This document shows, piece by piece, positions 25,450 to 42,379 of a stretch of 64,000 nt of DNA. Position 1 is the first letter of the stretch. Each line of letters begins with the position of its first letter. The DNA lies in the NCBI GenBank assembly GCA_011634665.1, contig WAEK01000002.1, forward strand, positions 3,304,501 through 3,368,500, written 5' to 3'. The stretch is from Mortierella sp. BCC40632 (lineage: Eukaryota > Mortierellomycota > Mortierellomycetes > Mortierellales > Mortierellaceae). Under the pieces are notes generated by a model. That model was not told where the DNA came from and ran no database searches. It saw nothing but the letters and a program-made list of their open reading frames with translations. The position numbers and the translations under genes were made by a program.

Positions 25450-28237
25450 CTACTCATCAGACCGCTCTTCCTCATCTTCTCCGATCTGCTCCTCTTGCTC
25501 GGTCGATTCGGCCAAGATTTGGTCCTCCTCAGCATCACCGCTAGGCTGAGGTTCCTCCGTTCCTTGCTCAGCGCCAACCGATTGAGAGTAGGCAATCGCC
25601 TGGTTCTCCTTATCCTTTGCAACATATGCCTGCAACAACTTTTCCATCTCTGACTGTCTGGCCTCCATTCGGGCAAGGCTACTCAACAGTCCCTGAACCA
25701 AAGCGTCTGTCAGAGCTGCTGAAGACTGGCCTTGGACGATAGAGCTAGAACCGCCTTCGATGATGACAGCGGTTGTTGGCCGGCTCACTGCTGCAGCCTG
25801 AATAGCCTCCTCAAAAGCGGCCTTGTTAATGGCCTCCCTGTTGACTACACCGTTGGTCTGCGCTCCAGAAGACTTGGACAACTTCTCCTTGGCACGACGC
25901 TCTTTAAACTCATCAAACGTCTCCAGAGGAGACACTCCCATCTTGAGGGCACTTCTTGAACCCATGTTGCCAAGATGTCTGCTTCCCTGATGGGCGCCGG
26001 CCTCACCTTCTTCGGCAGCATTGATGAGATCTTGGGATTCAACTGTCGCAGGCGTCTCAGCACCGCCAAGAGGTGATCCCTGTTGTTGCTCATCCACAAA
26101 CTCCTGAGTAGCCAAGAGGAACAGATCGTCCATGTTTGCATCAGCATCTTCTCTGGTAAGGTATCGGTAAACACGACGACCACCCTGGATGCGATGCTCA
26201 TCGACTGTATCTCTCAGCTTCAAGTATCGCTTTCGCTCAGATCTGGCAATAATCAGGATTGGGATACAGAAAATAGTGCCCATGATTTTGCGGTTGAGCG
26301 ATCGATAAGTATCTCTGGAGATGATAAAGCTCCACGGGATCACAAAGAATACTTCAATCAGGTTGAATGGGGCCGCATAGGGGTACTCATCGGGCGACTT
26401 GAGGTACGAGAACACCTTAAAGGTGAACAATGCCAGATACTCCTTCTCAGCCGAGTCCGTGATGTTGGTGTAGGACGAGTTGAAGAGCGCAATCAACAAG
26501 TTGAGCAAAATAATCGAAGTCAAGAAGAGGTACATGGCAAAAATCCAGTTGCCATAAACTGGATCAATTTCTCCAGCAAGTTCCCAGTCAGGATCTTGAA
26601 GGAATCCGCGTACGAGCAACATTGCCGAGGAAATAAAGTCCTTTTCCCTATCCTTTCGAAGGGCATAAAAACTTTGAAGGAATCCGATAAAGAACCAAGC
26701 CAATAGCCAAAAGAACATAATACCGTCCTTCAACATCTTTTGAAGCACCATGACCATGGTTCCTGATGACGAGTATTGTTGAGTATCGTTAATACATGCT
26801 CAGATCATCTCCAGAATGGACACTGCGGTTCCTCCACTATTTTTTCTTATCAAAGCTCAAGAATAAAGTGTTCACCTACCAAAGTACTGGAGTCCGTCCA
26901 AGAGAGACAGGGTCTTCACCCACAAGAATACAGCGAGGATAGCCAAAATATCGTATGCATAATCATTGTATACTTCCTTGACATCGTCGTCTGAGACCAG
27001 AACCAAGGCGGTAAATCGGAAAGCAAAAGCGGTCATGAACATTGAGTACGAGATAATGTTAACCCAATGCCACAAACTTCCCAAGAAGAAAGCCGTGCCA
27101 CCCTCGAAAATCTAAAGGCAAGATTTATTAACGGGGGTAAGTGGTGAGTAGACATTCCAATGCAAAGAGGAGGGGTTTTGTAAAGGCGATTGGGCAGAGA
27201 ACCCTTTAATGGCACTCACCAGTCTGAATTCCTCGAAAATGTAACCAGTAACAAAGGTGTAGAGAACCCATTCAAAGATCGAAGGCTCGTTCAATCGATC
27301 GTTAACAACGATGGAATACAAAATCATAAATACGATAAACATGGCCACCTTGAGATTGTTCTGGTACCTATCCAAAGCATCATGAATTATGAAGAGACAA
27401 CTGTTCAGCACCCAAAGTTCTTCACAGTCTTAAGGGGGACAGTCTCCCCCTTTGCCCCGAGTCACACCTTCCAGTAGAACCATCTAATCGTGCAACTTAC
27501 TTGGGGACATTGAGTCGGCCGACATCAACCCACTCCCAGAGGTTGTGCCTAGACCGTCTGACACCTGAATACTCCACAAAGCGGACGTGACATTCTTCAT
27601 CCTCAATCTGAAGGATGAGGCCGTTCCACAAGGCCTGGACACACCTCTGCACTTCAACATCAGCCAAGAAGTCAGTTGCATGGACTCTAATGGCAATTTC
27701 GATAGCGTTCTCGGCCGTGTTTCGTTCCTCTCCAGCAACATAGTAGGGGCGGGTCAGAACCTGGCAATAGGTTGCCATCATATCTCGACCAACAAAGGCT
27801 TTGACAACCTGAATAGCGGCAACCTGGGAGATTTCGGCGCGTTTGTCCATAAGCCTCTTTCGTCCCACATCCTTATTACCCTCATCCATAAAGGTCTCGA
27901 TACAGCGCAAGAGACAGTAGACAACTTCGCGCCCGAATCCAGAGAGATATTCGACGACCTCATCTGTGATGATGTCGTCCTCAACGCTAGCGGTATCCAC
28001 AAGGCTGTTGATAAGTGCAAAGAGTCGCGGGAGCAGGGCATGGATCTTGCGCGGGGATGAGGGTGGAGTAACATGATGATGGCCATTTGGAATCTGGTTC
28101 TCAAAGACATCGCGGATGTTGTCGACGAACTCCGAGATAGGGTTGTCGTGGTGGTTTTCGAGGTCGCGTGTCTGCTCCTCCTGTGAGAGCAGAGGGGTCT
28201 CCTCATTGTCATGGTCTTGGTCGTGAGTGTCCGCCAT
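25450..28237 (-). CDS. YVC1: Yvc1-type vacuolar TRP cation channel
   Basis: The ATG at 28235-28237 begins an acidic cytosolic N-terminus (about 245 residues in the first exon) with helical repeats such as LPRLFALINSLVD and VVYCLLRCIETFMDE. Membrane segments follow: NNLKVAMFIVFMILYSIVVN, FEWVLYTFVTGYIFEEFRL, LWHWVNIISYSMFMTAFAF, YAYDILAILAVFLWV, then IMFFWLLAWFFIGFLQSFYA, a pore-like stretch RGFLQDPDWELAGEIDPVYG and IFAMYLFLTSIILLNLLIAL. That last segment matches the TRP S6 signature, followed by FNSSYTNI. The cytosolic C-terminus ends in an acidic tail EEQIGEDEEERSDE, resembling the acidic Ca2+-sensing cluster of yeast Yvc1. TAG at 25450-25452. Yvc1 releases vacuolar Ca2+ on osmotic or mechanical stress. 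Four to five exons. The 5' end lies only about 70 bp from the left repeat copy, so its promoter may have been changed by that rearrangement. Confidence 0.9.
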
Positions 28238-28307
28238 GATCTCTCTATGGGCTCCAACTGTGAATGGACTGTGCGTTTAGAGGAGAAGAGAATGGATGAA
28301 GAAGAAG

Positions 28308-29152
28308 AAAAAAAAAAAAAAGGGGGGAGAGGGAGAAAGAGAATCGGCCAGAAAGACGGATGAGATGTTTTCTACTTTTCCCACACAATGTGCACGCGAC
28401 CGCCGCCATCCCTTCCTCACCTTCCCGCGTCTCTTTTTTCTCGCTTTGGACCCAGCCTTGGAGCCACCTCGTTTACCGTCGCGGTGCTCCCCGGGAGAAT
28501 ACTTTTTTTTCTTTCTCTTTCTCGTCCGCCTCGGCCTCGCCAAAATGTATTCTTTTTTACGTAAGCCCGAAGCTCCACCAGTTCACGCTCAGAGTTTTTG
28601 GATCTTTTTGAAATGATTGACCAGCACAACCACCATTCCGATGGGTCAGTGTCATCTACGGCCCAACATTCATGGACAAACACAGGAAAATTTACACCAG
28701 CACTGATGTATGCCCTACAGGAGCGGTGGGTAGCAAAGGCATGCCGCACATGGAGGGTCCAAGTGGTAGTAGTCCCTGCCCGTACATACTCTCCGCTCGG
28801 GAGAATTAAAACCTTCGTTCTCGGTAGAAGGTAGAGAATCTCATCAGCTGGCTGTTGTCTAACGCCAACACCACCTAGCTCAGCCAATGCTTATTTCGAG
28901 GACTAGAACAGACCAGTCGAGCACAGGCTTCCACTCGATGGATTTCATGCAAAATAATACTGTCCTTTTGTGTCTTGCCTGAGTTGGTCTCCATCTCGAG
29001 ATCTGCTGTACTCCTTGTCATGCAGGAACACTCCCCAACCACCTTTCTTTGACACCGGTAGCAGCTCGTCGCAACCACTCCACATTGGCCGTCACCTGTT
29101 GAGCTGCAGCAGCAAGATCATTGACATCCATGAAAAAGGGAAAACTACTGGA

Positions 29153-29196
<44 letters not shown>

Positions 29197-30023
29197 TTGT
29201 TGTTCAATAATGGAGATTAAATCAATGTGGCCAGTACCTGAGGTCCTCCACCAAGTTTCCCAAGTCGATCCTGCCATCCCTGGACTGCCTCTTCCTCCAA
29301 CGGCCTCGTCTCCCCTTGTGCGCTTACTCTCAGGAATCTCTCCGTCTTTGCTCCGACCGTAGGCGACGATGTCGCTGTGGTCCCCGGTGAGGTATGTAAC
29401 CTTGCGAATAAAGTTTGCTGATTCTTGGAGTGCATGACGAGCACTGATCAAAAATTCGAACATGGGGAAAACGTGTGGCATGTCGTCGTAGACTAACAAC
29501 TGCACTTCGGTCTGCCCTTTCTCTTGCTTCTTTGCTTCCGCTCCTCGAATCGCAAACACAATAGCCTCATCCCTCAGCAGCTCACCGTCTCCCGCAATCT
29601 TAGTATACAAAGCAGACATTGATGTTGGACGTTCAAGAAAATAGTGGACTTCATGTTAGGAACTCTGGAAGAAGTAGGCAGATTGTGACCAAACAATGAG
29701 AATGCAGTGTGACTCGTACCACTCCCTTTCTTTTCTTTCCTCCACAAGCAGCTTTCATTCGTTTTCTTGACGCCCATGACTTACCACAAGCATTGAACAT
29801 GTTCCTTTAAGACTGTTGACCACAACAGGGCTCACGTATGGGCAGTCGAGGACCGCGTTTGCAGCATAATGTTGAATCTCTGGAAGGTCGGGATGGTGCA
29901 ACACATTATCTTCTGGATTCATGGACGCGGCCAACCTTGCCACTCTTGTCAGTGAGCCCTGTCCTCCTTGCGTAAATCCCTCCGCAGGTAGATAGTCCGA
30001 CGACGCGTTTGTTAACACGGACG
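28308..30023. repeat. Direct repeat, left copy (about 1.72 kb)
   Basis: Near-identical to 38817-40536 in the same orientation. It starts in an A run followed by GGGGGG and ends abruptly within hydrolase coding sequence at ...AACACGGACG. By eye the copies differ mainly by small indels and a few replaced bases: near 28503, 28545, 28555, 28607, 29133, the sequence before the T run at 29150-29157, 29394 and 29738. Intron DNA and 3' flank are included, so this is a DNA-level duplication, not a processed retrocopy. Confidence 0.95.
29018..30023 (-). pseudogene. Truncated copy of alpha/beta hydrolase 3' end
   Basis: It carries the C-terminal exons of the hydrolase found intact at 39528-41730: the segment from [15 protein letters not shown] onward, the acid-residue region [17 protein letters not shown] and the His region [11 protein letters not shown]. 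It lacks the HGGGY and GDSAGG exons, so it has no catalytic serine. Relative to the right copy, an extra T near 29394 shifts the frame after FIRKV, and an altered, one-base-longer acceptor region near 29133-29157 would shift the last exon. No start codon precedes it; at its right end it runs into an unrelated zinc-finger gene. It is almost certainly non-functional as an enzyme, though it could still be transcribed as a 3' extension of that gene. Confidence 0.85.
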
Positions 30024-30702
30024 ACAGTCCCAGAGGATTTGATAGCGTCAACCCATGAAGTCTTGTATGATCGTGTCAGGCATTGCTCGCAGAATCGTAG
30101 GAGACATGGCTTGGACTCAGTCTTTGGTCTCTTCCTACTGTCAGGGTTCCAAGCCCTTGGCAAAGTGTTACCACACTTTAGCAGAACTGCTGCTGGCCTA
30201 GATTTTCGCGATTGGTTGCACATATGGCAAGTCGACTTTCCCTCCAAATGACCAAGTTGCTTTTGCCGAAGGAATGCGAGGGATGCAATTGAATATGCTT
30301 TGTTTCTTGACACATTGACGCTGTAAGAAAATGAGGGAAGAAAGGAGGTTATTGCTCCGAAAAAGGTTATGAGGCATAACACGCATAATATGTTACTTAC
30401 CCCTCTTGCCAAGTATTCATCAAGTCCTGATGGATACTGCACTCTTGGAGAACACTGGAGTTATTGAAGGCCATTGCAGCTCTTGAGACCAGCTTTCGCA
30501 GAGAATCCATTGAATAGAACCCGATGAAGCTGATTGAAGTTATCCTGTGAATGCAGCCTCTTCCTCGAGCAAAGCACTCTTTGAGGACCACCATGTCCTG
30601 TACGATGTCGTCAAGGCTGATGTCGTTGTAATGCTTGATGCGTGGAGCAGGTTGAAATGGGTAACCCAAGCTGATGACATCGCTGTAGGTTGGTGAATCC
30701 AT
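30024..30702 (-). pseudogene. CXXC-type zinc-finger gene, 3'-truncated at repeat edge
   Basis: Two exons join in phase 2: 30702 to about 30402 (starts MDSPTYSDVISLGYPF) and from about 30319 leftward. The second exon has THE Cys pairs CHMCNQ and, after about 40 residues, CLLRFCEQCL, a spacing like the zinc-finger domain named for monoamine-oxidase-A repressor R1 (zf-4CXXC_R1). That family often continues with more CXXC pairs. Here the family-like sequence ends at 30024, where the duplicated hydrolase segment begins; translation would continue into its antisense-frame-unrelated codons ([11 protein letters not shown]). So the gene lost its 3' half or became a fusion. Function unknown; related proteins are nuclear DNA or chromatin binders. 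The start and first exon look sound. It is the first gene inside the accessory island. Confidence 0.6.
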
Positions 30703-30765
30703 TAGAAGAGATGAAGAGATCGATCAACATTTCTACTCATCCAACAATACCTTGGACTTTTTCCT

Positions 30766-30832
30766 GCAGTATGCCCAGCATGACTTTTTTTCCTGCCCAG
30801 CATGACTTTTTTCCCGCAGTACACCCAGCATG
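30766..30832. repeat. Three tandem copies of a CCCAGCATGAC unit
   Basis: The unit CCCAGCATGAC followed by a T/C-rich stretch occurs three times, at about 30773, 30797 and 30826, between the zinc-finger gene start and the Crinkler-type gene end. No function assigned. Confidence 0.8.
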
Positions 30833-30992
30833 ACAATTTCTTCACCACTACGCGTCCTCTCTGTCGCCGCTCTCCTTCCTGCCTGTTGCTCCTTCTGCTC
30901 TCTACACACCACGAACAAACAAACTGGATGAGGACAACTCAGTAACACGTCATCACAAAGCAGAAAGCGCATTTTATTGCTGCAGTGAAAGA

Positions 30993-32425
30993 TTAGCTTC
31001 GCTGCTTTTTGAAGCTGTCGTCATCGTTGCTGTCATAGTCGTCAACAGAGCGCTTTCGAGCATTCTTGAGTCGATCAATAAAGTCTACATGCTCTTGGGG
31101 GAAAATGTTGCCAAAATTATTATCGCCTATGTTGATCACGACCTGCTGAACACCACTTGTGTCCTTTGGGAAATCTGAAGGTGCCAGCAGCTTGTCACTC
31201 CACTTGGTAGGGTATGCAACAATCATGCTGATGTAGACACTGTCAGGGCAGAACTTGCGGAAAGATCTCATGTGCGCCTCAATTTTGGGTGCTGAGACCG
31301 TGCTGAGTGCCTCATTCCAGTCCCTCTCCGAAAAGTTGGACGACCCTTGATGCAACTTCATCTGTACAAAAACAGGCACTAATCGAGCACCATTGATCCG
31401 AATAAAAAAAACCAAGTCTGGTCCCGACGGTTTGGACTTGGGGAAGAAAAATGGGGCGACAGGCATGTTGTTTCGAGTTGACTGATGGTTGACATGGACG
31501 TCCATGAAATCCTCCATTGACATAGTCGCGTGAATCGTACCTTGCTCGAGTCCAGGCTCTCTCCACACAACAATCTCCACCTTGCCGACAAGAGATGGAC
31601 ACATGTCAGCGATGGGGGGTTCGTGTGGCCAATCCGAGAGAGGTTGTTTGTTGAATGTCTCACTAAAAACATTCATCATGAACCTCTCAAACACACATCC
31701 TTGATCAGCGGCTGTCGCTTTCACCATCTTTCCGGACCTCCCTCCTCCACAGCCTTGGAAACGAAGGGTTCATCCAAAACGGTAGTAGCTTTACCCGAGA
31801 TGATTTTGATCCGACCAAACGCATGTTCCACCAACTGAAGGTCTACCTCCTTGAGGACAAGGTCATGACTCCCAAACATGCATCTCTGATACATTAGGAG
31901 ACCGAGCATGCTCTCGATGGGTTCCGCAAGTCGATGTTTGTATTGGTTGTGTTTGTCGTGAAGACGCCTGATCTCGTAGCAAATGTTGCCTTTGATATGT
32001 CGATTTGCCCAAGACACCAGCCTATCCTCAGCATCTTCGATGGTCCTCTTCCATGCACTAAGGTCATTGCATTCAATAATCCTCTCTATGGACAGAAAGA
32101 CAATAAAGTTGCAGGTGTTGAGCATACTGGACATGAGATCATTTCATTGCCCCTTCTCTTTAAGGTCATCTCAGGTTCACATACCAATTGCTGCTATAGC
32201 CGGACGATAGCGGCCCGCAAACTTTTCGTACATGTCGGCTGCCTCCTGTGGAAGTTGCTCGTCCAGAGACAGCTTGCACTGGTCGTTTTCTAGACACGTC
32301 TGCACTCGAGAAATGTAGGCCTTGATCGAGTCTTTTCCAGACCAACCTGGAAACTCTATATGAGTGAGGAGGGTGACATTGCAAAGAGACGCGTCAAAAG
32401 AAAGTGCATAGATGGCATGGGGTGA
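30993..32425 (-). pseudogene. Crinkler-type NTPase/nuclease gene, 5'-truncated and frameshifted
   Basis: Three blocks in order. (1) 32425-32193: LTHIEFPGWSGKDSIKAYIS to KFAGRYRPAIAAIG, resembling the distal part of the Crinkler P-loop NTPase domain. (2) 32100 to about 31725: IERIIECN to GRIKIISGKATTVLDEPFVS, a winged-helix-like linker. (3) 31727-30993: a domain with GPDLVFF and VPVFVQMKL, matching the PD...(D/E/Q)xK arrangement of restriction-endonuclease-like folds, ending SFKKQRS. The secretion/header region and Walker A expected upstream are absent: a stop lies just before block 1 and only repeats lie beyond. Blocks 2 and 3 are in different frames around 31722-31735 with no evident intron. 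Crinkler-type proteins are known effectors or selfish nucleases in oomycetes and fungi. This copy looks decayed, although the nuclease-like domain alone has its own ATG (31725-31727) and is open for 244 codons. Confidence 0.65.
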
Positions 32426-32564
32426 TCAGAGGGAGGTAAGGTTGATGGGAGATGTGTGGAGGGTGCAGCAACTGCGGCAGAGTAGAAATTCGGAGACGTA
32501 ACAGAGTGGCTTGCAAGCGTCGTCTTTCCCTCTTAACTTCATCGCCTCTCTGTCTCGCTATTTC

Positions 32565-32599
<35 letters not shown>

Positions 32600-32656
32600 G
32601 AAGGTATTATTATAGATTTATCACGCCCTTCCAGCTCAGATTTCAATGGACATGTC

Positions 32657-32990
32657 AACGCTCCGTGCCACCGTGATGTTCTATCATGGAGACATCTTGC
32701 GATAACCACTCCGGCCTTTTGGCGCGTTTCTCCCTTGGCCTCCTCATTTAGTTTACTTGAGGTTGTTGTCCGAAGTTGAAATCTCTCCATCTCGGCTCTT
32801 GTGTGCTTGTTGTCATGTTTGATGAACAACGCTCCGTGTCACCGTGATGTTTTATCATGGAGACATCTTGCGATAACCACTCCGGCCTTTTTGATGCGTT
32901 TCTCCCTTGGCCTCCTCATTTGGTTTATTTGAGGTTGTTTCCCAAAGTTGAAATCGATCTCTTTTGGCTCTTGTGCGCTTGTTGTCATCT
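32657..32990. repeat. Two tandem copies of a 171 bp unit
   Basis: The unit starts AACGCTCCGTG at 32657 and again at 32828, with scattered substitutions and small indels between copies. It contains a palindrome-like TATCATGGAGACATCTTGCGATA. It lies immediately upstream of the gene at 33078 and downstream (in plus direction) of the broken 5' end of the Crinkler-type gene. It may be a duplicated promoter segment or an element remnant. Confidence 0.9.
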
Positions 32991-33077
32991 CCATCAATGA
33001 TATTTGTGTGAAATAGTGTTTCAGAGCAAAATATTGCTAATATCTCTATTCCTTTTGCCTTCTCGGTATTTTAGATA

Positions 33078-33590
33078 ATGTCACTAAAAAAAGAGATCAC
33101 ATTTACAGACGAAGAACTAGACTGGATTCGCAGTAATGACAGTGTATCGCCAGGACTATACTTCGAAAAGTTTAGGTCTGATAGTCAGAACCAATACAAA
33201 GAGCACCAGCGTTACTCCCGCTTATTAGACAATGGAAATTTCGAACCAGATTGTTTGAGCTCACTTCGGAGGAGCTTTGATTCCTGGAAGATCAACAAAG
33301 CACGACAATTCTGGTTAGACCGACGTACAAGAGCTGTAACTATGCGAACAGCAGGAAAGTTAGTTGAGGGGTCTGAGCCTGTTGTTTTCCAATCTATTGA
33401 CCGAACTACCTCTAAGATATTCGAGCAAAATCAAGGTACGAGTTCTACTACTGAACGCTGAATGCACTTCTTTGATATTGGTGAACCATTTGTCCTTACA
33501 ATCAACCTAAAAAAAACACTAGATGTCAAAGGAACAAATGGAGTGAATCTTACTTCTGGGTCGTTACAGCGAGGTACTATCTATTGTTGA

Positions 33591-33632
<42 letters not shown>

Positions 33633-35589
33633 GACTGTACGAATCAGCAGCGGGGACCATGACCGGTTCTTCAAATTCAACATCGCAGCCATCCACCAAG
33701 AGCAGGATCCCAGCCCCCGTAGAATCTGTTGCGACCACCAGGAAGCCTACGAAGCGCAAATATTCTGCGATCGCAGAGCCATGGCGGTCGATTGTCCAGC
33801 AACTCCTGGAGAAGGTACGCTCATTTGTTGGAAATGTCATTATGCTCAGCGGCTAGCACCGCGAGCCAAGTCTGCGGAGTTTGGAGTTATTAATTTTTAA
33901 GTTTACTTTTTTTTTATGTGCTAGATAAATGGTAGGGAGGTTGCCTTGGCTGAAGAATGGCCAAAAAACGAGCTGACTGGGCTTCACAAGAATCTTCGCG
34001 AGTTTATTGAAGGACACGTTCAGGACATTGCGCCCATGCCGGTACTGGTTGAGAAGGATGTGTTGTAAGTAAACGATGCCAACTTTTTCTCTAGAATATT
34101 TTTGCTGTTGCTGTTAGGAGATTTTACTGACGTATTATCTCTCTCTTTTAGTGTTGCGATGTCTGGTATTGTAAATGCAAGAATGCACGGCGCACGAGAT
34201 GTCTTTGGTGAGGGCACACTGGAAATGATCAAGACCCTGTGCCTACAACCCAACATCAGCACGCCCAACGATGAAATCATTGAGGTATTGGCACCGCTTC
34301 AAGAGGCGTTCGAGGCAGGCGGAGTCGGAAGACTTACCGACATTGTGGAAGTTGAGCTGGGGAACATGGCCTCAGCTCGTTTAAAGGGGGAGTTTTCAAC
34401 TCCATTGAAATGCAGGATACTGGACGCCGTACGACACATGTTAGTACACTATGTGGATTTTCAATATGAACATTCGTAACCTATGCCGTAATACTAATAC
34501 TCACGTCATTCTCAGTTGTCTCAAAAAGCCATCAAAAGCAATGAGTGAGGGCGAACTAGTGGAAGTGTGGTCATATGTTCTTAGTGCACTTTCTGGTCAC
34601 AAGCTGACCCTTCGCTCGTAAGTTTTCATATTATTCATTTCGGATGACATGAGCTTCCAACTTCCTATACTTACTAACACGTGCGTGGTCGCAACACCTT
34701 ACTTTTCAGAGGAGAGCTGACGTCAAAGGCAATACAGTGGCAGCGGTTGCTCATAAAGCAGGAATACAATGTGGACCCAAGCTCAGCGACATACGGAAGG
34801 AAACTGGATTTACAGTGTAGGTCTGAAGAGCTTGAGCTCAACAATTCGGAGTTCAAAGTAGACAGTGCATCAGAGCAGCAGATTCAGATCCAATACCGCA
34901 AGAATCTGCGGATAAACCAAGCTATGATGCTTTATTTGCGGGAGAAGATTGGCATGCCACTCGAGGATTTAGACGTCCTTGCGTTAGATGTCCATGGTAA
35001 ATGATATGACAATTGACAATGTGTAGAATTATTCCATATCTCTATGATAATTGTTGAGTGCTTGACCTCACACAAATATCTTTATGTCTTTGAAATAGGC
35101 CTGTCGGCGGTATTGTTTGCGCTCAAATACCATGGCGATGTATTTGTATCGGACCTCGCCACTAAGCACATGTTGCGTCTCCCAGACTCGCCAACTACAT
35201 GGAAAATGTTCTTTAATGGAAAAACCTTGAGTGTACTCTTGGCCTATGTGGTAAGGAACTCTTATTGTCTTTCTAACCATTTGAATTGCCAATTATCGAC
35301 TGTTGATTGTAAGACTAATGCTTAGGGCGAGTAGAAACATTTGCTTGACCTGACAGAACGAATAGAGGAGCAGGAGTTGATACACGAGGAGGAGTCAAGG
35401 ACCGCTGATGTATTCACACCAGAGCGAGAACCGCGACATCTGGGCGGATTCACCTTTTTAAGCCCAACCAAGAAAAGATGTACTGCAAACTCATACCATG
35501 CTCCAAGGAACGAAGCTGAGGACCACGAGGCAGAGGAAGGCATACTGCACGAGGATGAGATTAGCAACCGTTATGGTGATTATGACTAA
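33078..35589 (+). CDS. Lineage-specific protein with PD-(D/E)XK-like motif
   Basis: About nine exons, all open with consensus splice sites; starts MSLKKEITFTDEELDW, ends ISNRYGDYD, TAA 35587-35589. I cannot name the family. The N-terminus is charged; a basic linker follows (KPTKRKYSAIAEPW). A helical middle has MSGIVNARMHGARDVFGEG. Then comes YGRKLDLQCRSEELELNNSE followed by FK: an Asp, an acidic strand and a terminal E-x-K, the pattern of PD-(D/E)XK nucleases. Next is the helix-strand stretch DLDVLALDVH / GLSAVLFALKYHGDVFVSDL and a C-terminal tail rich in Glu. Similar architecture is familiar from expanded, uncharacterised families in Mucoromycota (from memory, not searched). The acid-EXK placement between predicted strands supports nuclease ancestry, but activity is inference. 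A small exon at about 33522-33572 and an (ATT)n tract in the following intron (33590-33628) are notable. It is the only island gene that looks fully intact. Confidence 0.7.
33590..33628 (+). repeat. (ATT)n microsatellite in intron
   Basis: About 13 ATT units inside an intron of the gene at 33078-35589. Confidence 0.95.
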
Positions 35590-36657
35590 TTTACAGAATA
35601 GGTTCCATAATATACTTCAATGAGATTTTCAACTTTTTGCATATTCCGCTCCTTTACCAGGAGGCTTATGAGTGAAAGGATTATGAATTCTATTTCCATC
35701 TCGTTCGCTGTAATTTTGAATTGGCCAAGTAATGTTTCAATTTCTCTCTTTTACCACTTGGAGGTTCTCTCTTTGCCACTTGGAGGATTCATTTTTCAAC
35801 CGAAAGTTGAAATCATGAAGAAGCATAAATTTACAATTCTTTTCTTTCATTACTCTTTTCTGCTGTTGATAATAGTATATTTAGCGTGAGTGCTGTATAA
35901 TAAAGTGTACAGTTGACTTGATAAAGGCTAGAGATGAATATTGACTCTCTATTTTTGTTGTCGAGTGGATGTTTGATCATGTCTGAAGGCAGCTTCCGCG
36001 CCTCAAAATTATGCTATTTGCTATCGGATACGTTACATAGACCATATCTACGATTAAATTAAGGATTCTACTAGGAGAAGGCGGATGCGTGGTAGTGGGG
36101 ATGGAAGAGGAGGAGGTGGTGGATGCGTGATGGTGATGGAGGAGGTGGTGAGGGTGAATGCGTGGCGGTGATGAAGGAAGAGGAGGAGAAGGTGAATGTG
36201 TGGTGGCGGTGGAGGAAAAAAGCAAGAAAGGAAGAGGAAGGGAGTGAAGAAGGAATGCGGAGACTCAATAAAAAAATACAGCACAGAGTTCCCACGTGGT
36301 CCCCCACCATAACGGCCGTAGCTCAGAATCATGGCTATTCCCACTGGTCATATACCCACTGGCCACACACCTTCACTCATTTCCCCAAGCAGGAGCGGTA
36401 CACGAGGAAGGGAAGGGAAAAAAAGAGGGGGGAGGGGGAGACAGGGACAGGAACATTGGGAGGGGGGGAGGAAAAAAAAAGAGGGGAAAAAGCGAGAGGA
36501 CAATGGTCACATGCCTCTCTGATCTGGCCCAGATCTTCACAGAAACCAACACACAGCACACAATCAACTCAAGCTCTTCTAAAGCTTCCAGCTGCAGCAA
36601 ATACCATTCATTCTAAGGCGAAACGCAACGCGACAAAAAAATAGTACAGTGGTGGCA
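35590..36657. other. Intergenic region in the island
   Basis: It holds the 3' flank of the gene ending at 35589 and the 5' flank of the recombinase gene. A purine-rich minisatellite lies at 36080-36220, and a G/A-rich tract at 36415-36500 creates spurious open frames on both strands. No gene called. Confidence 0.6.
36080..36220 (+). repeat. GGA/GGTG-rich imperfect minisatellite
   Basis: Repeats of GGAGGAGGTGGTG and GCGTGGTGGTGATGG-type blocks, about four imperfect units of 33-40 bases. Confidence 0.75.
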
Positions 36658-38792
36658 ATGAAATCAAACTCTCTCTGTCGGATGAATCTTCAAACTCCAA
36701 CTTCATCTCCAAGGACTCGTCGGCAAAAGCGAGCTCATGAGGCCCAACTTGCGGCGATTCATGACTTGGGCGAAGGGAGTCATGACCTAAGCGAAGAGAT
36801 TCAGCTTGACCCTCAACAACAGATTCAGTCAAGCTTGCAAGAAAAGAGTCAGCCAGACCTGGGAGAAAAAAAGTCAGGCAAATCTGGAGGAAGAGCCTCT
36901 CGTTCGGAGTCCCAGGCGCAGGGGACTGTTGCCACAGCAACCTTGTCCTACAGCGGCCCAACCAAAAAACCATGTCAACCAAGGACAGCACCAGCGACTT
37001 CCGCAGGAGCAAGTGCAGGGCCAGCACCTCAAGAGGCACAGCTGCACCAGCAAGCATCGGGACAGGGCAAGAAGGTCAGACCACCCGGAAATGTATTATC
37101 GCGGGAGTAACTTCTGGCCTGCCTTCAGGGATTGTCGCAGGAACAATCAGGTTCCCAAGATCAACCTATGCTCGATGAACTGCCTACATTTCATGAGCAA
37201 CTACCAACTCAGGAACCAATACAGGTCCATGAGGAACATGATCTCCAAGGTCAACCTCTACCCGACGAACTGTCTGCACTCCATGAGCCACTATCAAGTC
37301 AGGAGGAGGAGCAAACACAGATCCATGAAAAGCAAGATACTCTAGTGCGACGCAAACGTGGTCGACCTCGAAAGCGACCACTTACTGACACTGAAGGTAA
37401 ATGTTGTTGGATTGCTGCCCACGAGTATCCACTTGGTGTACAATGCGTAACGATACAGAGGTTTGCTTATTCCCAGTACTATTGTATTGCTACTGATATT
37501 TAGGTGGCACAGTCATTGCCAGTGAGGGTGCGAGCTTTCCACAGCCTCGAGTACCACCTCGGAAAAAAGCAGCCCGCACTACTGAGAGAGCTCAGGTACC
37601 ACAGTGGACTGAATCTTTAAAGGATACTATTCTACGGGAGCGACTGAAGCTTGAGAACGATACGAAGGCAATATCACTGGGGAAATCAAGGAGCACGATT
37701 ATCCAGTACGTGCGCGTCATTGAGCTCTGGAGAGTAAGCACTTCATCAGAGGATGAACGTGTTGCTGAATGACCTGGCGAGCATTATGTATGGCATCAAG
37801 AGTGAGAAAAGTCCATGCTCTAATCCCGTTAACTCACTCCCTTTTCATCTGTTTGTTCTGTGGGTTACCAAATAGATCTTTTGCGAAGCAAACGTTGATA
37901 AGTTCTCTATAGGTGATGGATCTTTGCTCTTTGCCGTGTATCCGATGGAGAAAGTTCTCGAATTTTTTAAGGAGCATGTCTTCAAGAGGACTGCAAACAA
38001 AATACGTCCCTATTGGAACCGGATACAAGACCCAGGTTCACGTCTACGACCCTCATAATCCTGAGCAAGAGAATGCTGGCCTCTTGGAGTGTATGTGCCA
38101 TTGGTGTTGTCCCTGGATTTCCCAAGTCTACTCTTAGCCCCTACTCACCATTGGTTTTACTTGTCTTTTAATCTCACTAGCGATCAAGCAAGCCAGATTC
38201 AGCAAAGACGGGAAGAAAAAAAGTAATTGAGGTGCCGATATCAGAAGAAACCGTTAGTCAGGACAAAAAAGGTCTCGTTGAACTTCATCGTGTCCAAAAA
38301 GAGCGTAACTTGTTTGGAGGCCCACTTCCAAGCAAGTGGACAGAACTGAAGGAGGCCATCAGGGGCTATAATATGAATCTTGTGTATGAAGGTTCTCATA
38401 TCAGTGGGCAGCGAGTTACGGGATGTATCCTCAGAGATTCTTTCAAGCTACCGCAGCTGATATCTATGGCGCAAACGCTGTGGAGCACACCGACCAGAAC
38501 ATCCAGAGAGAGTATTCTACTTCATCGAAACAGGTTTTGCCTACTAGCACGCCATCAAATGCTCCTGAGAGACGAAGACATTCGCCACCTCAACTACTCT
38601 GAGTGTTTCTTTGACGTCCTCGCCAGAGACCTACATCATGGCTCTCAACAAGCCATGGCACTTGTTTTTCGTTTAAACAAAGGAAAAACGAATAAGAGTG
38701 GCCAAAATCTCTATGCTGCTGCTGCACGCCACAAGGATATCCGAAGGTGCCTTTTAGGAGCATCTGCATTTTACTTGCTTGCCCAATTCCTG
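36658..38792 (+). pseudogene. Crypton-type tyrosine recombinase with AT-hook, 3'-truncated
   Basis: The ATG at 36658 opens a basic, Gln-rich N-terminus; a 54 bp intron (37075-37128, phase 0) removes what would be an in-frame stop. Exon 2 has two degenerate copies of a DELP..HE.L motif and the AT-hook-like VRRKRGRPRKRP. Then come a helical DNA-binding-like segment (SLKDTILRERLKL, STIIQYVRVIELWR, GSLLFAVYPMEKVLEFFKEH) and the catalytic-domain start LLRDEDIRHLNYSECFFDVL (candidate first Arg). Next is RLNKGKTNKSGQ followed by AARHKDIRRCLLGASAFYLL, a signature of Crypton/Ndc10-like proteins. Cryptons move as circles cut and joined by this enzyme; the H-x-x-R and Tyr boxes should follow. Here the gene stops after QFL at a donor-like GTAAGA, then T14-A21, then the right direct repeat. 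A probable one-base frame shift lies near 37988, where VFKR passes to GLQTKYVPIGTG. I judge it defective. Confidence 0.7.
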
Positions 38793-38802
38793 GTAAGAAC
38801 AA

Positions 38803-38836
<34 letters not shown>

Positions 38837-38837
38837 A
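38803..38837. repeat. T14-A21 homopolymer junction at island edge
   Basis: T14 passes straight into A21 and then GGGGGG of the right direct repeat. It marks the exact boundary between the truncated recombinase gene and the hydrolase-derived segment. Confidence 0.9.
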
Positions 38838-39670
38838 GGGGGGAGAGGGAGAAAGAGAATCGGCCAGAAAGACGGATGAGATGTTTTCTACTTTTCCCAC
38901 ACAATGTGCACGCGACCGCCGCCATCCCTTCCTCACCTTCCCGCGTCTCTTTTTTCTCGCTTTGGACCCAGCCTTGGAGCCACCTCGTTTACCGTCGCGG
39001 TGCTCCCCGGGAGAATACTTTTGTTCTCTTTCTCGTCCGCCTCGGCCTCGCCAAGCAATGTATTCTTTTACGTAAGCCCGAAGCTCCACCAGTTCACGCT
39101 CAGAGTTTTTGGATCTTTTGAAATGATTGACCAGCACAACCACCATTCCGATGGGTCAGTGTCATCTACGGCCCAACATTCATGGACAAACACAGGAAAA
39201 TTTACACCAGCACTGATGTATGCCCTACAGGAGCGGTGGGTAGCAAAGGCATGCCGCACATGGAGGGTCCAAGTGGTAGTAGTCCCTGCCCGTACATACT
39301 CTCCGCTCGGGAGAATTAAAACCTTCGTTCTCGGTAGAAGGTAGAGAATCTCATCAGCTGGCTGTTGTCTAACGCCAACACCACCTAGCTCAGCCAATGC
39401 TTATTTCGAGGACTAGAACAGACCAGTCGAGCACAGGCTTCCACTCGATGGATTTCATGCAAAATAATACTGTCCTTTTGTGTCTTGCCTGAGTTGGTCT
39501 CCATCTCGAGATCTGCTGTACTCCTTGTCATGCAGGAACACTCCCCAACCACCTTTCTTTGACACCGGTAGCAGCTCGTCGCAACCACTCCACATTGGCC
39601 GTCACCTGTTGAGCTGCAGCAGCAAGATCATTGACATCCATGAAAAGGGAAAACTACTGGTATATTGGCT

Positions 39671-39709
<39 letters not shown>

Positions 39710-40536
39710 TTGTTGTTCAATAATGGAGATTAAATCAATGTGGCCAGTACCTGAGGTCCTCCACCAAGTTTCCCAAGTCGATCCTGCCATCCCTGGACTG
39801 CCTCTTCCTCCAACGGCCTCGTCTCCCCTTGTGCGCTTACTCTCAGGAATCTCTCCGTCTTTGCTCCGACCGTAGGCGACGATGTCGCTGTGGTCCCCGG
39901 TGAGGTAGTAACCTTGCGAATAAAGTTTGCTGATTCTTGGAGTGCATGACGAGCACTGATCAAAAATTCGAACATGGGGAAAACGTGTGGCATGTCGTCG
40001 TAGACTAACAACTGCACTTCGGTCTGCCCTTTCTCTTGCTTCTTTGCTTCCGCTCCTCGAATCGCAAACACAATAGCCTCATCCCTCAGCAGCTCACCGT
40101 CTCCCGCAATCTTAGTATACAAAGCAGACATTGATGTTGGACGTTCAAGAAAATAGTGGACTTCATGTTAGGAACTCTGGAAGAAGTAGGCAGATTGTGA
40201 CCAAACAATGAGAATGCAGTGTGACTCGTACCACTCCCTTTCTTTTTCTTTCCTCCACAAGCAGCTTTCATTCGTTTTCTTGACGCCCATGACTTACCAC
40301 AAGCATTGAACATGTTCCTTTAAGACTGTTGACCACAACAGGGCTCACGTATGGGCAGTCGAGGACCGCGTTTGCAGCATAATGTTGAATCTCTGGAAGG
40401 TCGGGATGGTGCAACACATTATCTTCTGGATTCATGGACGCGGCCAACCTTGCCACTCTTGTCAGTGAGCCCTGTCCTCCTTGCGTAAATCCCTCCGCAG
40501 GTAGATAGTCCGACGACGCGTTTGTTAACACGGACG
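38817..40536. repeat. Direct repeat, right copy (about 1.72 kb)
   Basis: Same orientation as 28308-30023. This copy is continuous with the intact hydrolase gene, covering its last exons, introns and about 0.7 kb of 3' flank. It is therefore the likely native sequence. Confidence 0.95.
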
Positions 40537-40563
40537 GCATCGAGTGCAACAAATCTAGCCTAT

Positions 40564-40601
<38 letters not shown>

Positions 40602-41730
40602 AGGCAATGAGAATCAGAATAGTCGTACTGTCTTTGACATCTTTGTAATAGTCTTAGCCTAAAAATCTCTATAAGTAACTTTGGTCTTACCAAGGACTCC
40701 ACCCAATGATTCCAGCGGGCATAGGTAGACCCGCATCCCTGATTGCGAGCATGGTAGCAAAAGTCAAACCTATGCTCAAAAGGGGCTCGTTAGTTCATGG
40801 GTAATATATGGAGCCGCCCTTCTACCTTATATCCTTGTAGTCCATCACAACCAAACCAAAGAAAGTCAAGCAATTGATTACCTCCTCCAGCCGAATCTCC
40901 CATAATGACAAGATTCTTGGGGTCAACAGCAGCTTGTCCAGACTCTAGTGGAGGATGGAGAAGATAAAGATAGGCTGCGAGTGCATCCTGAAGTGCTGCA
41001 GGGAAGGGCGAGTCTGGTGCCAATCTATAATCAATCGCTGTAATGTGTCCAAAAGGATCATCGAGTGGTTATCACCTGTTGGCTTTGATACTTAATATGA
41101 TACCTCCTAGGTTCAGAAGATGTGGATTCACTGAATAGAGGCATACGATTATACTCATTCTATCAACATACAGAATACCTTGGCATCCCCAAGGCTAGCC
41201 ATTCCCCAAGTCGCCCAGCGGTGGGTGCGGATCGAAGCAAGAAAGTATCCTCCCCCATGTAGGTACAATACAGTTCTCTTTCCGCTTAATTCCTTCTCGT
41301 CCGCTCCTCGAGCCCAGGTCCATTCACCCTCGAGAGGCTCACTCGTTGCCATGGGATCATTCCTCCAATCCCAACCCAGTTTGGTATCATCAATTCCCTG
41401 TCGCTCAAACAACGTCTGGAGATGAACTGAAGCCTTATCCCGGTACTGACCCGGAACCGTGCTCATAAACGAGACCGCCCCAGCATTTATAGGGGCATCT
41501 TCGTCGGTGACTCTTCTCGATAATGCCTGAGAGTCTTTGATGGGAACATGATTAATCTGGGTCAAGAATGACCGGAGGAGGGCAATGGTAAGAGAGAGTT
41601 TATAGGACCAAGACTTCTTGGGCGGGCCGAGCGCATAGTGGACCAGAGTAGTCGAGACGATGAGTGGGACCTTTGGAACGATAATCCGGAGGATCCCAAG
41701 GAGCTTTTGGGGAGCTGATGGAGAGGACAT
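39528..41730 (-). CDS. Alpha/beta hydrolase, hormone-sensitive-lipase-like esterase
   Basis: The ATG at 41728-41730 ([20 protein letters not shown]) begins a hydrophobic N-terminus that could associate with membrane. The oxyanion-hole motif is in [16 protein letters not shown]; next exons give [20 protein letters not shown] and [12 protein letters not shown] (nucleophile Ser), then [20 protein letters not shown], spliced in phase across a T8-A29 intron. Later come the acid region [14 protein letters not shown] and the His in [13 protein letters not shown]. The last exon, after an intron with a 36-nt homopolymer (A on the coding strand, T at 39673-39708), is [20 protein letters not shown], ending GSVPA with TGA 39528-39530. 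HGGG and GDSAG place it with HSL-type carboxylesterases/lipases that hydrolyse short- to medium-chain esters or acylglycerols. The catalytic triad is complete. Its final exons are duplicated at 28308-30023. Confidence 0.88.
40563..40599. repeat. T8-A29 homopolymer junction in hydrolase intron
   Basis: On the coding (minus) strand this is T29 then A8 and TAG, forming the polypyrimidine tract and 3' splice site of the intron before [11 protein letters not shown]. Confidence 0.85.
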
Positions 41731-42379
41731 TGTTGATGGTAGCGATCACTACAAAGACGAGTGGGTGAGTGGTATGAGGTGTGGAGTACAAGGCAGGATC
41801 AAGAAAGAAGACTGAGCAGGACGTTTTTAGAAAGAGAGGGAGTATGTATCGCGTAGGTCAAAGGGGTTGAGAGAGAAGAAGAGGAGAGAAAGAAGTAGAA
41901 GAAAAAGAAGAAAAGAGAGAGAAAGAGAGATGGGTAATGGGAAAGAAGATGAGAATGAATGCCAAGGTGGGTTGGGATGGGCTTACCAATTCAAAATCCC
42001 AGGTCAAAGGCCAGCCAGCCGAAGACCCGAAGGGGTGAGAAAAGAGCACAGGGGCCGCCAACATGCCACGCACTCCGAATGAACAATCTCCTCCTCCTCC
42101 TCTCCCCAAGGCAGGAACAGAACGCTAAACCGGTTTTAAGGTTCGATCATCGAGACCCGAGCAGACCTACTCCCATTGCCCCTGATCGACTCCGGCTTCG
42201 CCTACCGAAGCAAATTTTTATAAAGGACGAGGGGTTTAATGATGATCCGGTTCATCTCTAGCTCAAACTGAGCTGTGCTCGTCCTATCTCCTCCTCCTCC
42301 TCCTCGTCCTCCTCGTCCTCCTCTTCCTCCTTCTCTCCTCCTCGTCATCACTGAATCCTGTCTTAAACCACTTTGAGCT
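41731..42379. other. Intergenic region with TCC repeat
   Basis: It holds the promoter of the hydrolase gene and the 3' UTR of the RING gene. TCC/TCG trinucleotide repeats at about 42285-42345 lie right after the RING stop codon. A GA-rich patch lies at 41870-41935. No gene seen. Confidence 0.65.

Follow-up and report, generated by a model that had tools for sequence, protein, structure and literature searches.

Genes and repeats at the locus

Within the window, the whole 64,000-nucleotide stretch that was analysed from this soil fungus, an 8.8-kb island separates a Yvc1/TRPY1-like channel gene from an alpha/beta hydrolase gene and is bounded by two direct repeats, R-left and R-right (Table 1). 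The repeats are 98.6% identical over 1729 columns by blastn. Aligned globally, with the A-tract edge left out, they differ by 14 mismatches and 7 gap events in 1694 columns, and their identity extends to both edges of R. Outside homopolymers there are 8 mismatches in 1608 columns, all within a single patch (28544-28554), where small indels seem to have been misaligned, leaving no clear point substitution between the copies. R occurs in two places in the 49.9-Mb genome, both inside the window, and is ordinary local DNA of 1.7 kb rather than a short core. The preliminary description of this DNA had reported two near-identical copies in the same orientation, which the two alignments and the genome search confirm, and had stated that only the right copy joins an intact hydrolase. 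The right copy does complete the gene, and the left copy holds a relict of its 3′ end, whose frame leaves that of the relatives after one extra nucleotide (possibly a sequencing error).

Table 1 Features at the locus, with positions in the window
Feature	Positions	Strand	Remarks
Yvc1/TRPY1-like channel gene	25453..28237	-	left ancestral neighbour; LHD_TRPY1 5e-25
R-left	28302..30023	.	3′ part of hydrolase and intergenic stretch reaching the Yvc1 gene
Relict hydrolase 3′ end inside R-left	29217..30023	-	frame shifted near end
Segment A	30024..30579	-	internal fragment, 556 bp, lacking both ends of a CxxC-motif gene (zinc-finger by eye)
Segment B	30579..32514 (right limit approximate)	-	Crinkler-family C-terminal region
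Segment C	33075..35586	+	exon-like ORFs, PD-(D/E)XK-like motif by eye; low-identity paralogues only
Segment D	36418..38801	+	Crypton-type recombinase gene, 5′ part only, ending within an intron
Junction D/R	38802..38837	.	14 T, then 21 A
R-right	38818..40536	.	near-identical to R-left
Complete alpha/beta hydrolase gene	39730..41730 (about)	-	right ancestral neighbour; completed by R-right

Both flanking genes have clear relatives. The spliced hydrolase model matches Abhydrolase_3 in Pfam (E 6.6e-37), the C-terminus of the right-hand hydrolase resembles that of its relatives, and the closest named homologue is from Lunasporangiospora selenospora (86%). The start codon of the channel gene, which was checked, lies 65 bp from R-left, and this gene has a homologue, BGW38_007342 (78%). 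Fourteen relatives' tag sets show both genes. The two locus tags are consecutive in nine of these, including L. selenospora, and non-consecutive in the other five (different contigs shown). The consecutive tags indicate that the adjacency is ancestral and that the interior plus one copy of R is an insertion between the two genes. This adjacency in relatives was a check proposed in the preliminary description, and its view of an insertion, with a truncated hydrolase copy besides the intact one, is supported.

Interior of the island

The interior is a mosaic. Its left end (30023/30024) cuts a gene, with about 2 bp shared at the junction, and its right end is also gene-internal. Relatives of Segment A lie at C14:168003-168558 and C15:149338-149893 (contig and positions; 95-96%), and the roughly 1.5 kb between A and B in these relatives is missing from the island. 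Segment B belongs to a dispersed family with at least 37 other places in the genome. Several of these paralogues resemble the Crinkler (CRN) family in having a PF20147 header nearby, which supports the Crinkler-type label of the island gene. The header has 111 matches in the genome, but the island copy differs from its paralogues in having no header match on contig C2. A fold prediction of the Crinkler-like exon ORF was of no use (pLDDT 34.6). Thus, of the interior genes named in the preliminary description, the Crinkler-type gene is borne out through its paralogues, whereas the zinc-finger and PD-(D/E)XK labels are motifs recognized by eye that have no Pfam match.

The Crypton-type recombinase named there is also real, but its gene is truncated at the right junction. 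Segment D is 97.4% identical to C5:1263334-1265602, and of the 442 residues in a model built from this relative, the island recombinase has 1-195. The second exon of the C5 relative, in which HxxR and Y were recognized by eye, is absent from the window: Segment D ends in an A-rich intron where the relative runs on into the next exon. When 27400-42300 was scanned against Pfam in six frames (E up to 0.1), NDC10_II was the sole recombinase family, and no DUF3435 (PF11917) captain was found. A PDB sequence search with the Crypton model gave no match at E 1, nor did a plasmid search with Segment D give a match. The island is bounded by an A run in an intron on one side and by a site within a gene on the other, and no element ends with short direct repeats occur there. 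For this copy we therefore rejected the earlier suggestion that a Crypton drove the island: its recombinase is cut and lacks the catalytic part with HxxR and Y, both ends lie inside genes and R is local DNA. The recombinase looks like a broken passenger, not the cause.

First-look genome searches, which give lower bounds, found no second copy of the interior as a whole. First-look searches of the assembly likewise found no near-identical donor for D (best 95-97%) or A (best 95-96%). For the central 4 kb, with 40 of 42 candidates scored, the best match was 73% over about 320 bp.

A 5.35-kb element elsewhere in the genome

Outside the window, a 5.35-kb element with a recombinase gene and a convergent Crinkler gene occurs in six roughly 99% identical copies at five loci. 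At one locus, two elements lie head to tail and share a single core, TAT/ATCTAT, which is the arrangement expected from site-specific integration. The left end is constant in all six copies. The right end is alike in four, and the remaining two have a common right end that is different and longer. The element has no long terminal repeats. In the copy at C5:1525289, one exon ORF matches NDC10_II over the cut-off (E 1.2e-7), the first exon ORF reaches only 0.058, and a GCR1_C match (0.019) is below the cut-off. With its Ndc10/Crypton-type recombinase and the constant ends and short core of a repeated element, it looks like a real cargo-carrying Crypton, and its mobility is predicted. This Mortierellaceae genome very probably has a cargo system in which a Crypton carries effector-type Crinkler genes. 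The wider idea in the preliminary description, a cargo Crypton outside Pezizomycotina, is thus exemplified in this genome by an element at other loci, of which the island is not a copy.

Two related candidates were rejected. The island is not a copy of the 5.35-kb element, given that it has a different Crypton family (43% to the copy at C5:1526432) and that the element's left end is absent from the window. The locus at C5:1265006 is not supported as a compact Crypton-Crinkler unit, since other ORFs lie in between. More generally, closeness of Cryptons and Crinklers judged with the B-family places gave 5 of 38 within 20 kb, where about 1.0-1.3 are expected, and nothing notable was seen at 5 or 10 kb. 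A sharper test, closeness of Cryptons to Crinkler headers, gave eight hits among 39 loci (the window's own locus being one of the 39), six of which are copies of one element. With this element counted once, there are 3 hits in 34 (Poisson P about 4e-4). The expectation here is scaled and uses estimated lengths for eleven contigs; the lengths of C23 and C32 later proved to be 706,780 and 124,648.

Origin of the island and known systems

The locus has an A-B-E-B-C topology, in which B is R and E the interior, with little homology at the junctions. We give about an even chance to one recent repair or template-switch insertion of this B-E-B form, from a donor not found in the assembly. Starting from the ancestral order of Yvc1 gene, R and hydrolase 5′ part, this lineage would recently have gained 8.8 kb of Crinkler- and Crypton-containing accessory pieces during repair or replication restart. 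Synthesis would have left R within the hydrolase exon at 30023/30024, where roughly 2 bp are shared, and then copied the foreign stretch, with 30579 marking at least one more switch. A shared A run, at 28308-28321 in R-left and 1.7 kb behind the point of exit, could have brought it back to the locus, where it would have copied R a second time. The A run of the D/R junction is shared on both sides: the Crypton intron has 23 A in C5, and the R-left edge has 14 A. In the product, R-interior-R, the promoter side of the Yvc1 gene and the 3′ end of the hydrolase would both be kept, and the two flanking genes would thereby remain whole. Recombination between the R copies would release a 10.5-kb circle, restoring the empty site. 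The ancestral adjacency, both junctions, the truncation on either side, the mosaic interior and the near-identity of R are observed, and from them we infer the order of synthesis, the single event and its recency.

Segment D differs from its C5 relative by 49 substitutions in 2174 positions and Segment A from its C14 relative by 25 in 553, while the R copies have no clear one. Fisher tests give P 4.7e-6 (R versus D/C5) and 1.7e-9 (R versus A/C14), even though the 8 mismatches of the patch are included for R. The C5, C14 and C15 relatives were rejected as direct donors, because they are too divergent beside the near-identical R copies, unless R has been converted. Gene conversion could give the R copies a young look. 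Under a copying model the donor should remain, yet no near-identical one was found, so the donor may be lost, unassembled or of another genome, or the piece may have been excised rather than copied.

A less likely, though possible, origin is an extrachromosomal circle carrying R and the interior, integrated by a single crossover through R homology. This would yield exactly the truncated and complete hydrolase copies around the cargo and fits the near-identical R copies, and the island, once in place, could cycle as a circle by R x R exchange. However, both junctions between R and the interior must already have existed in the circle, which pushes the origin one step back, and such a join was found nowhere else in the genome. 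Circle integration and template switching lead to the same product.

We find it rather doubtful that a linear broken fragment was captured in a break with a wide stagger, followed by fill-in of its 1.7-kb ends. Such a capture would account for the missing donor, for interior ends that both lie inside genes and for the left junction with about 2 bp shared. By contrast, a 1.7-kb stagger is long, the A run at the right junction favours use of microhomology, and junction duplications of more than 50 bp are, in the account of PMC10482687, not explained by simple end joining. Slightly more doubtful still is the proposal that, alongside the Crypton cargo system, the island is its debris. In this view, DNA with a Crinkler and a Crypton of a sister family would have been released in circular form and caught at the hydrolase locus, and R x R exchange would since have been its one means of movement.

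An older insertion with R copies kept alike by gene conversion is improbable. Direct repeats 10.5 kb apart can convert, and the hydrolase relict carries one frame-shifting indel, but identity runs up to both R edges with no clear substitution left, and converting repeats should often delete the island too. We consider an assembly artefact very improbable: many homopolymer indels suggest a noisy long-read assembly, but the R copies differ by several independent indels and sit in a 3.6-Mb contig, each joined to its ancestral neighbour. A Starship-like mobile cargo element led by its own Crypton recombinase would be in keeping with the Crypton-type and Crinkler-family genes inside the island and with the Crypton elsewhere that does carry a Crinkler gene, but it is hardly credible and already contradicted for the island copy, in which the recombinase is cut, without its catalytic half, and both ends fall within genes. 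In addition, the window does not contain the 5.35-kb element's left-end sequence, the boundary is 1.7 kb of local DNA and not a short core, and the arrangement is different, with the Crinkler upstream and unrelated DNA separating it from the Crypton.

Under the repair or template-switch reading, the locus is a clear and apparently recent gain of accessory genes between two conserved genes, neither of them broken, by a repair-type insertion that duplicated its own edge. It also shows that the presence of a recombinase gene in an island does not make that gene the mover. The 5.35-kb side result would, if true, be weightier than the island itself: a Crinkler-carrying Crypton would offer a direct route for the spread of a large effector-type family in early-diverging fungi, and would add, beyond the Starships, a small recombinase element with cargo.

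The island resembles cis reciprocal duplication (A-B-E-B-C), which PMC10482687 ascribes to microhomology-mediated replication restart in human tumours: both have a foreign segment between direct copies of locally duplicated DNA, with little junction homology. In the tumour cases described there, E is short (50 bp-1 kb), B is long (1-300 kb) and the donor is retained, whereas the island, in a fungal assembly, has an E of 8.8 kb, a B of 1.7 kb and no donor found.

Starships, as characterized in PMC12134995, occur in Pezizomycotina, have a DUF3435 captain at the 5′ end and span 15-700 kb. The likeness is a tyrosine recombinase with cargo genes in a fungus. However, neither the island nor the 5.35-kb element fits the host group, captain or size. 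The Starship analogy drawn for the island in the preliminary description is not supported, given that DUF3435 was not found and that the recombinase, with residues 1-195 of 442, is at the far right, not the 5′ end.

Ndc10/Cbf2 has a CryptonF-like part (PMC3212892), and an NDC10_II match is present both in Segment D and in its C5 relative, although the island copy is truncated, lacks the catalytic residues and is not at element ends. The 5.35-kb element shares with CryptonF the NDC10_II match, a weak GCR1_C match and the lack of long terminal repeats, and differs in carrying a Crinkler gene, a cargo that is not part of the description of Cryptons in PMC3212892.

Direct repeats in an ancestral neighbourhood

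The preliminary description had noted near-identical repeats in the same orientation around the 8.8-kb island, and these are real. R-left and R-right, each composed of the hydrolase 3′ part and intergenic DNA, lie 10.5 kb apart and are the only two places where this sequence (R) occurs in the 62 contigs (49.9 Mb) searched. The copies differ by 14 mismatches and 7 gap events over 1694 aligned columns. Outside homopolymers there are 8 mismatches in 1608 columns, every one within 28544-28554; to judge from the sequence, these are misaligned small indels.

The hydrolase is complete only when R-right is included, in agreement with the description's statement that only the right copy joins the intact gene. 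In the R-left relict a single extra nucleotide shifts the sequence out of the conserved frame, while the right copy keeps the frame of the relatives. The start codon of the channel gene is 65 bp away from R. Among the proteins listed, the top relatives of hydrolase and channel are BGW38_007341 (86%) and BGW38_007342 (78%), both from Lunasporangiospora selenospora. A comparison of two homologue lists shows both genes for 14 locus-tag prefixes. The suggested check for a Yvc1-like gene directly beside the hydrolase in relatives came out positive in nine (BGW38, EDD11, BGX26, BGZ83, EC968, BGX27, BGX28, EC991 and FBU30), whose tag numbers are consecutive, meaning no annotated gene between; adjacency in the relatives is read from these locus tags. 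In the other five (BGZ94, BGX34, BGZ65, BGX21 and DFQ27), the numbers are not consecutive and the listed contigs differ; the lists consist of 90% clusters and some tags belong to paralogues, so the genes may or may not be neighbours in these five. Given the consecutive tags, the Yvc1-hydrolase neighbourhood is the ancestral state, to which the interior and one copy of R were added.

Positions of features in the window (C2:3304501-3368500) and on other contigs (C with a number) of the genome
Feature	Position	Match or remark
Yvc1/TRPY1-like channel gene	left of R-left	LHD_TRPY1 5e-25
R-left	28302-30023	
Segment A	30024-30579	95-96% to C14 and C15
Tandem pair of ~171-bp units	32656-32988	90% alike
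R-right	38818-40536	
Alpha/beta hydrolase 5′ part	right of R-right	
5.35-kb element	C5:1525289-1530641	99%
5.35-kb element	C32:10847-16192	99%
5.35-kb element	C14:1185838-1191181	99%
5.35-kb element	C23:693435-698790	99%
5.35-kb element, head-to-tail pair	C9, about 1234240-1244930	98.7-99.0% to C5 and C32 (separate comparison)
Crypton nearest to the island's copy	C5:1248501-1278500	
Crinkler-family copy and Crypton-type gene	C6:2090948-2094341	NDC10_II 1.9e-15
Last 48 residues of Crypton model	C9:773404, C18:1051279, C1:1164021, C28:151450, C6:511682	4/5 in long open frames

Composition and sources of the interior

On sequence comparison, the island interior is a mosaic. Segment A, zinc-finger-like by eye, occurs elsewhere only in C14 and C15 (3/3 candidates scored), as an internal piece of a gene, and ~2 bp at the left junction are common to this source. 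There it lies ~1.5 kb from a Crinkler-family copy; in the island it directly adjoins segment B at 30579. C14 and C15 have in common a 7.4-kb segment (96% alike) that contains the whole source of segment A together with a Crinkler-family copy. Segment B consists of C-terminal Crinkler-family DNA that recurs in at least 37 further places of the genome (36 from a search scoring 40/127 candidates, and one in C5). Crinkler headers (PF20147) occur ~1.4 kb away from several other places of this family, and none was found on C2. The tandem ~171-bp units adjoin the Crinkler-family segment. Segment C, PD-(D/E)XK-like by eye, has only low-identity paralogues, the best 73% over ~320 bp, shorter pieces apart (40/42 candidates scored).

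The Crypton-type recombinase reported from the interior is present as segment D but truncated: in a genome protein search it covers residues 1-195 of our 442-residue Crypton model, versus 1-442 in C5. Segment D is 97.4% identical to C5 over 2275 columns and ends inside an intron after ...GGTAAGAACA, within a stretch of 14 T followed by 21 A. The same intron in C5 has 23 A, and the gene then continues to an exon with an HxxR...Y pattern (by eye). R-left begins with 14 A. The C5 gene sits between two inverted 4.3-kb retroelement copies of 99.4% identity; by eye they look DIRS-like and have ORFs resembling reverse transcriptase and recombinase. Because one copy splits the gene further along, we regard it as fuller than the island copy, not as proven intact. 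Five places match the model's last 48 residues (79-90%) and lack the remaining gene, as if these residues were common to another element.

Segment D diverges from C5 at 49/2174 positions and segment A from C14 at 25/553. The R copies are far more alike (Fisher P 4.7e-6 and 1.7e-9, respectively), which rules out these loci as immediate donors unless R was homogenised. First-look genome searches found no better donor for the interior.

Crypton-Crinkler pairs elsewhere in the genome

The Crypton model matches 39 places, the window's own locus among them, and the Crinkler header gives 111 matches in 105 places; 0/14 control genomes have a header match. Eight of the Crypton places have a header on the opposite strand, 2535-2712 bp past the recombinase, versus a mean of 0.16 and a maximum of 2 such pairs in 5000 trials of random placement within contigs, for eleven of which an estimated length was used. 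Six of the eight are roughly 99% copies, at five loci, of one 5.35-kb element distinct from the island. Its C5 copy encodes NDC10_II (1.2e-7) and the Crinkler header (9.8e-22), convergently. All six copies start TATAACAGAC and four finish ...ACATAATCTA(T); those in C23 and C32 have a different right end, common to both for some 20 bp. Between the two C9 copies is a single core common to both, as site-specific integration beside a resident copy would give, or the pair may be a simple tandem duplication. The remaining two pairs (C8 and C25) have the same geometry, with a weak 69% DNA match to part of the cargo in C25. C6 has a Crypton-type gene within ~1 kb of a Crinkler-family copy, arranged differently from these pairs.

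Partial texts on Crinkler and Crypton contained no description of a Crypton carrying a Crinkler gene, which is no proof of absence from print. A review, in the excerpts, associates CRN genes with regions rich in helitrons, and nuclease domains with transposable elements.

Formation of the island

The island may have arisen by replication restart with microhomology, of the cis reciprocal duplication type. The return junction would reflect a switch through the A-run and a further switch would lie at 30579, both of which fit such restart. Two features fit poorly, namely that no donor was found and that E is long, so we regard this reading as evenly balanced between right and wrong. Integration of a circle, a main rival, seems unlikely, and capture of a fragment, another, is more doubtful still. 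Replication restart, like both rivals, predicts precise removal of the island by exchange between the R copies. In the excerpted text of PMC10482687, an A-B-E-B-C topology is termed cis reciprocal duplication and explained by microhomology-mediated replication restart; the island resembles that product in its A-B-E-B-C topology.
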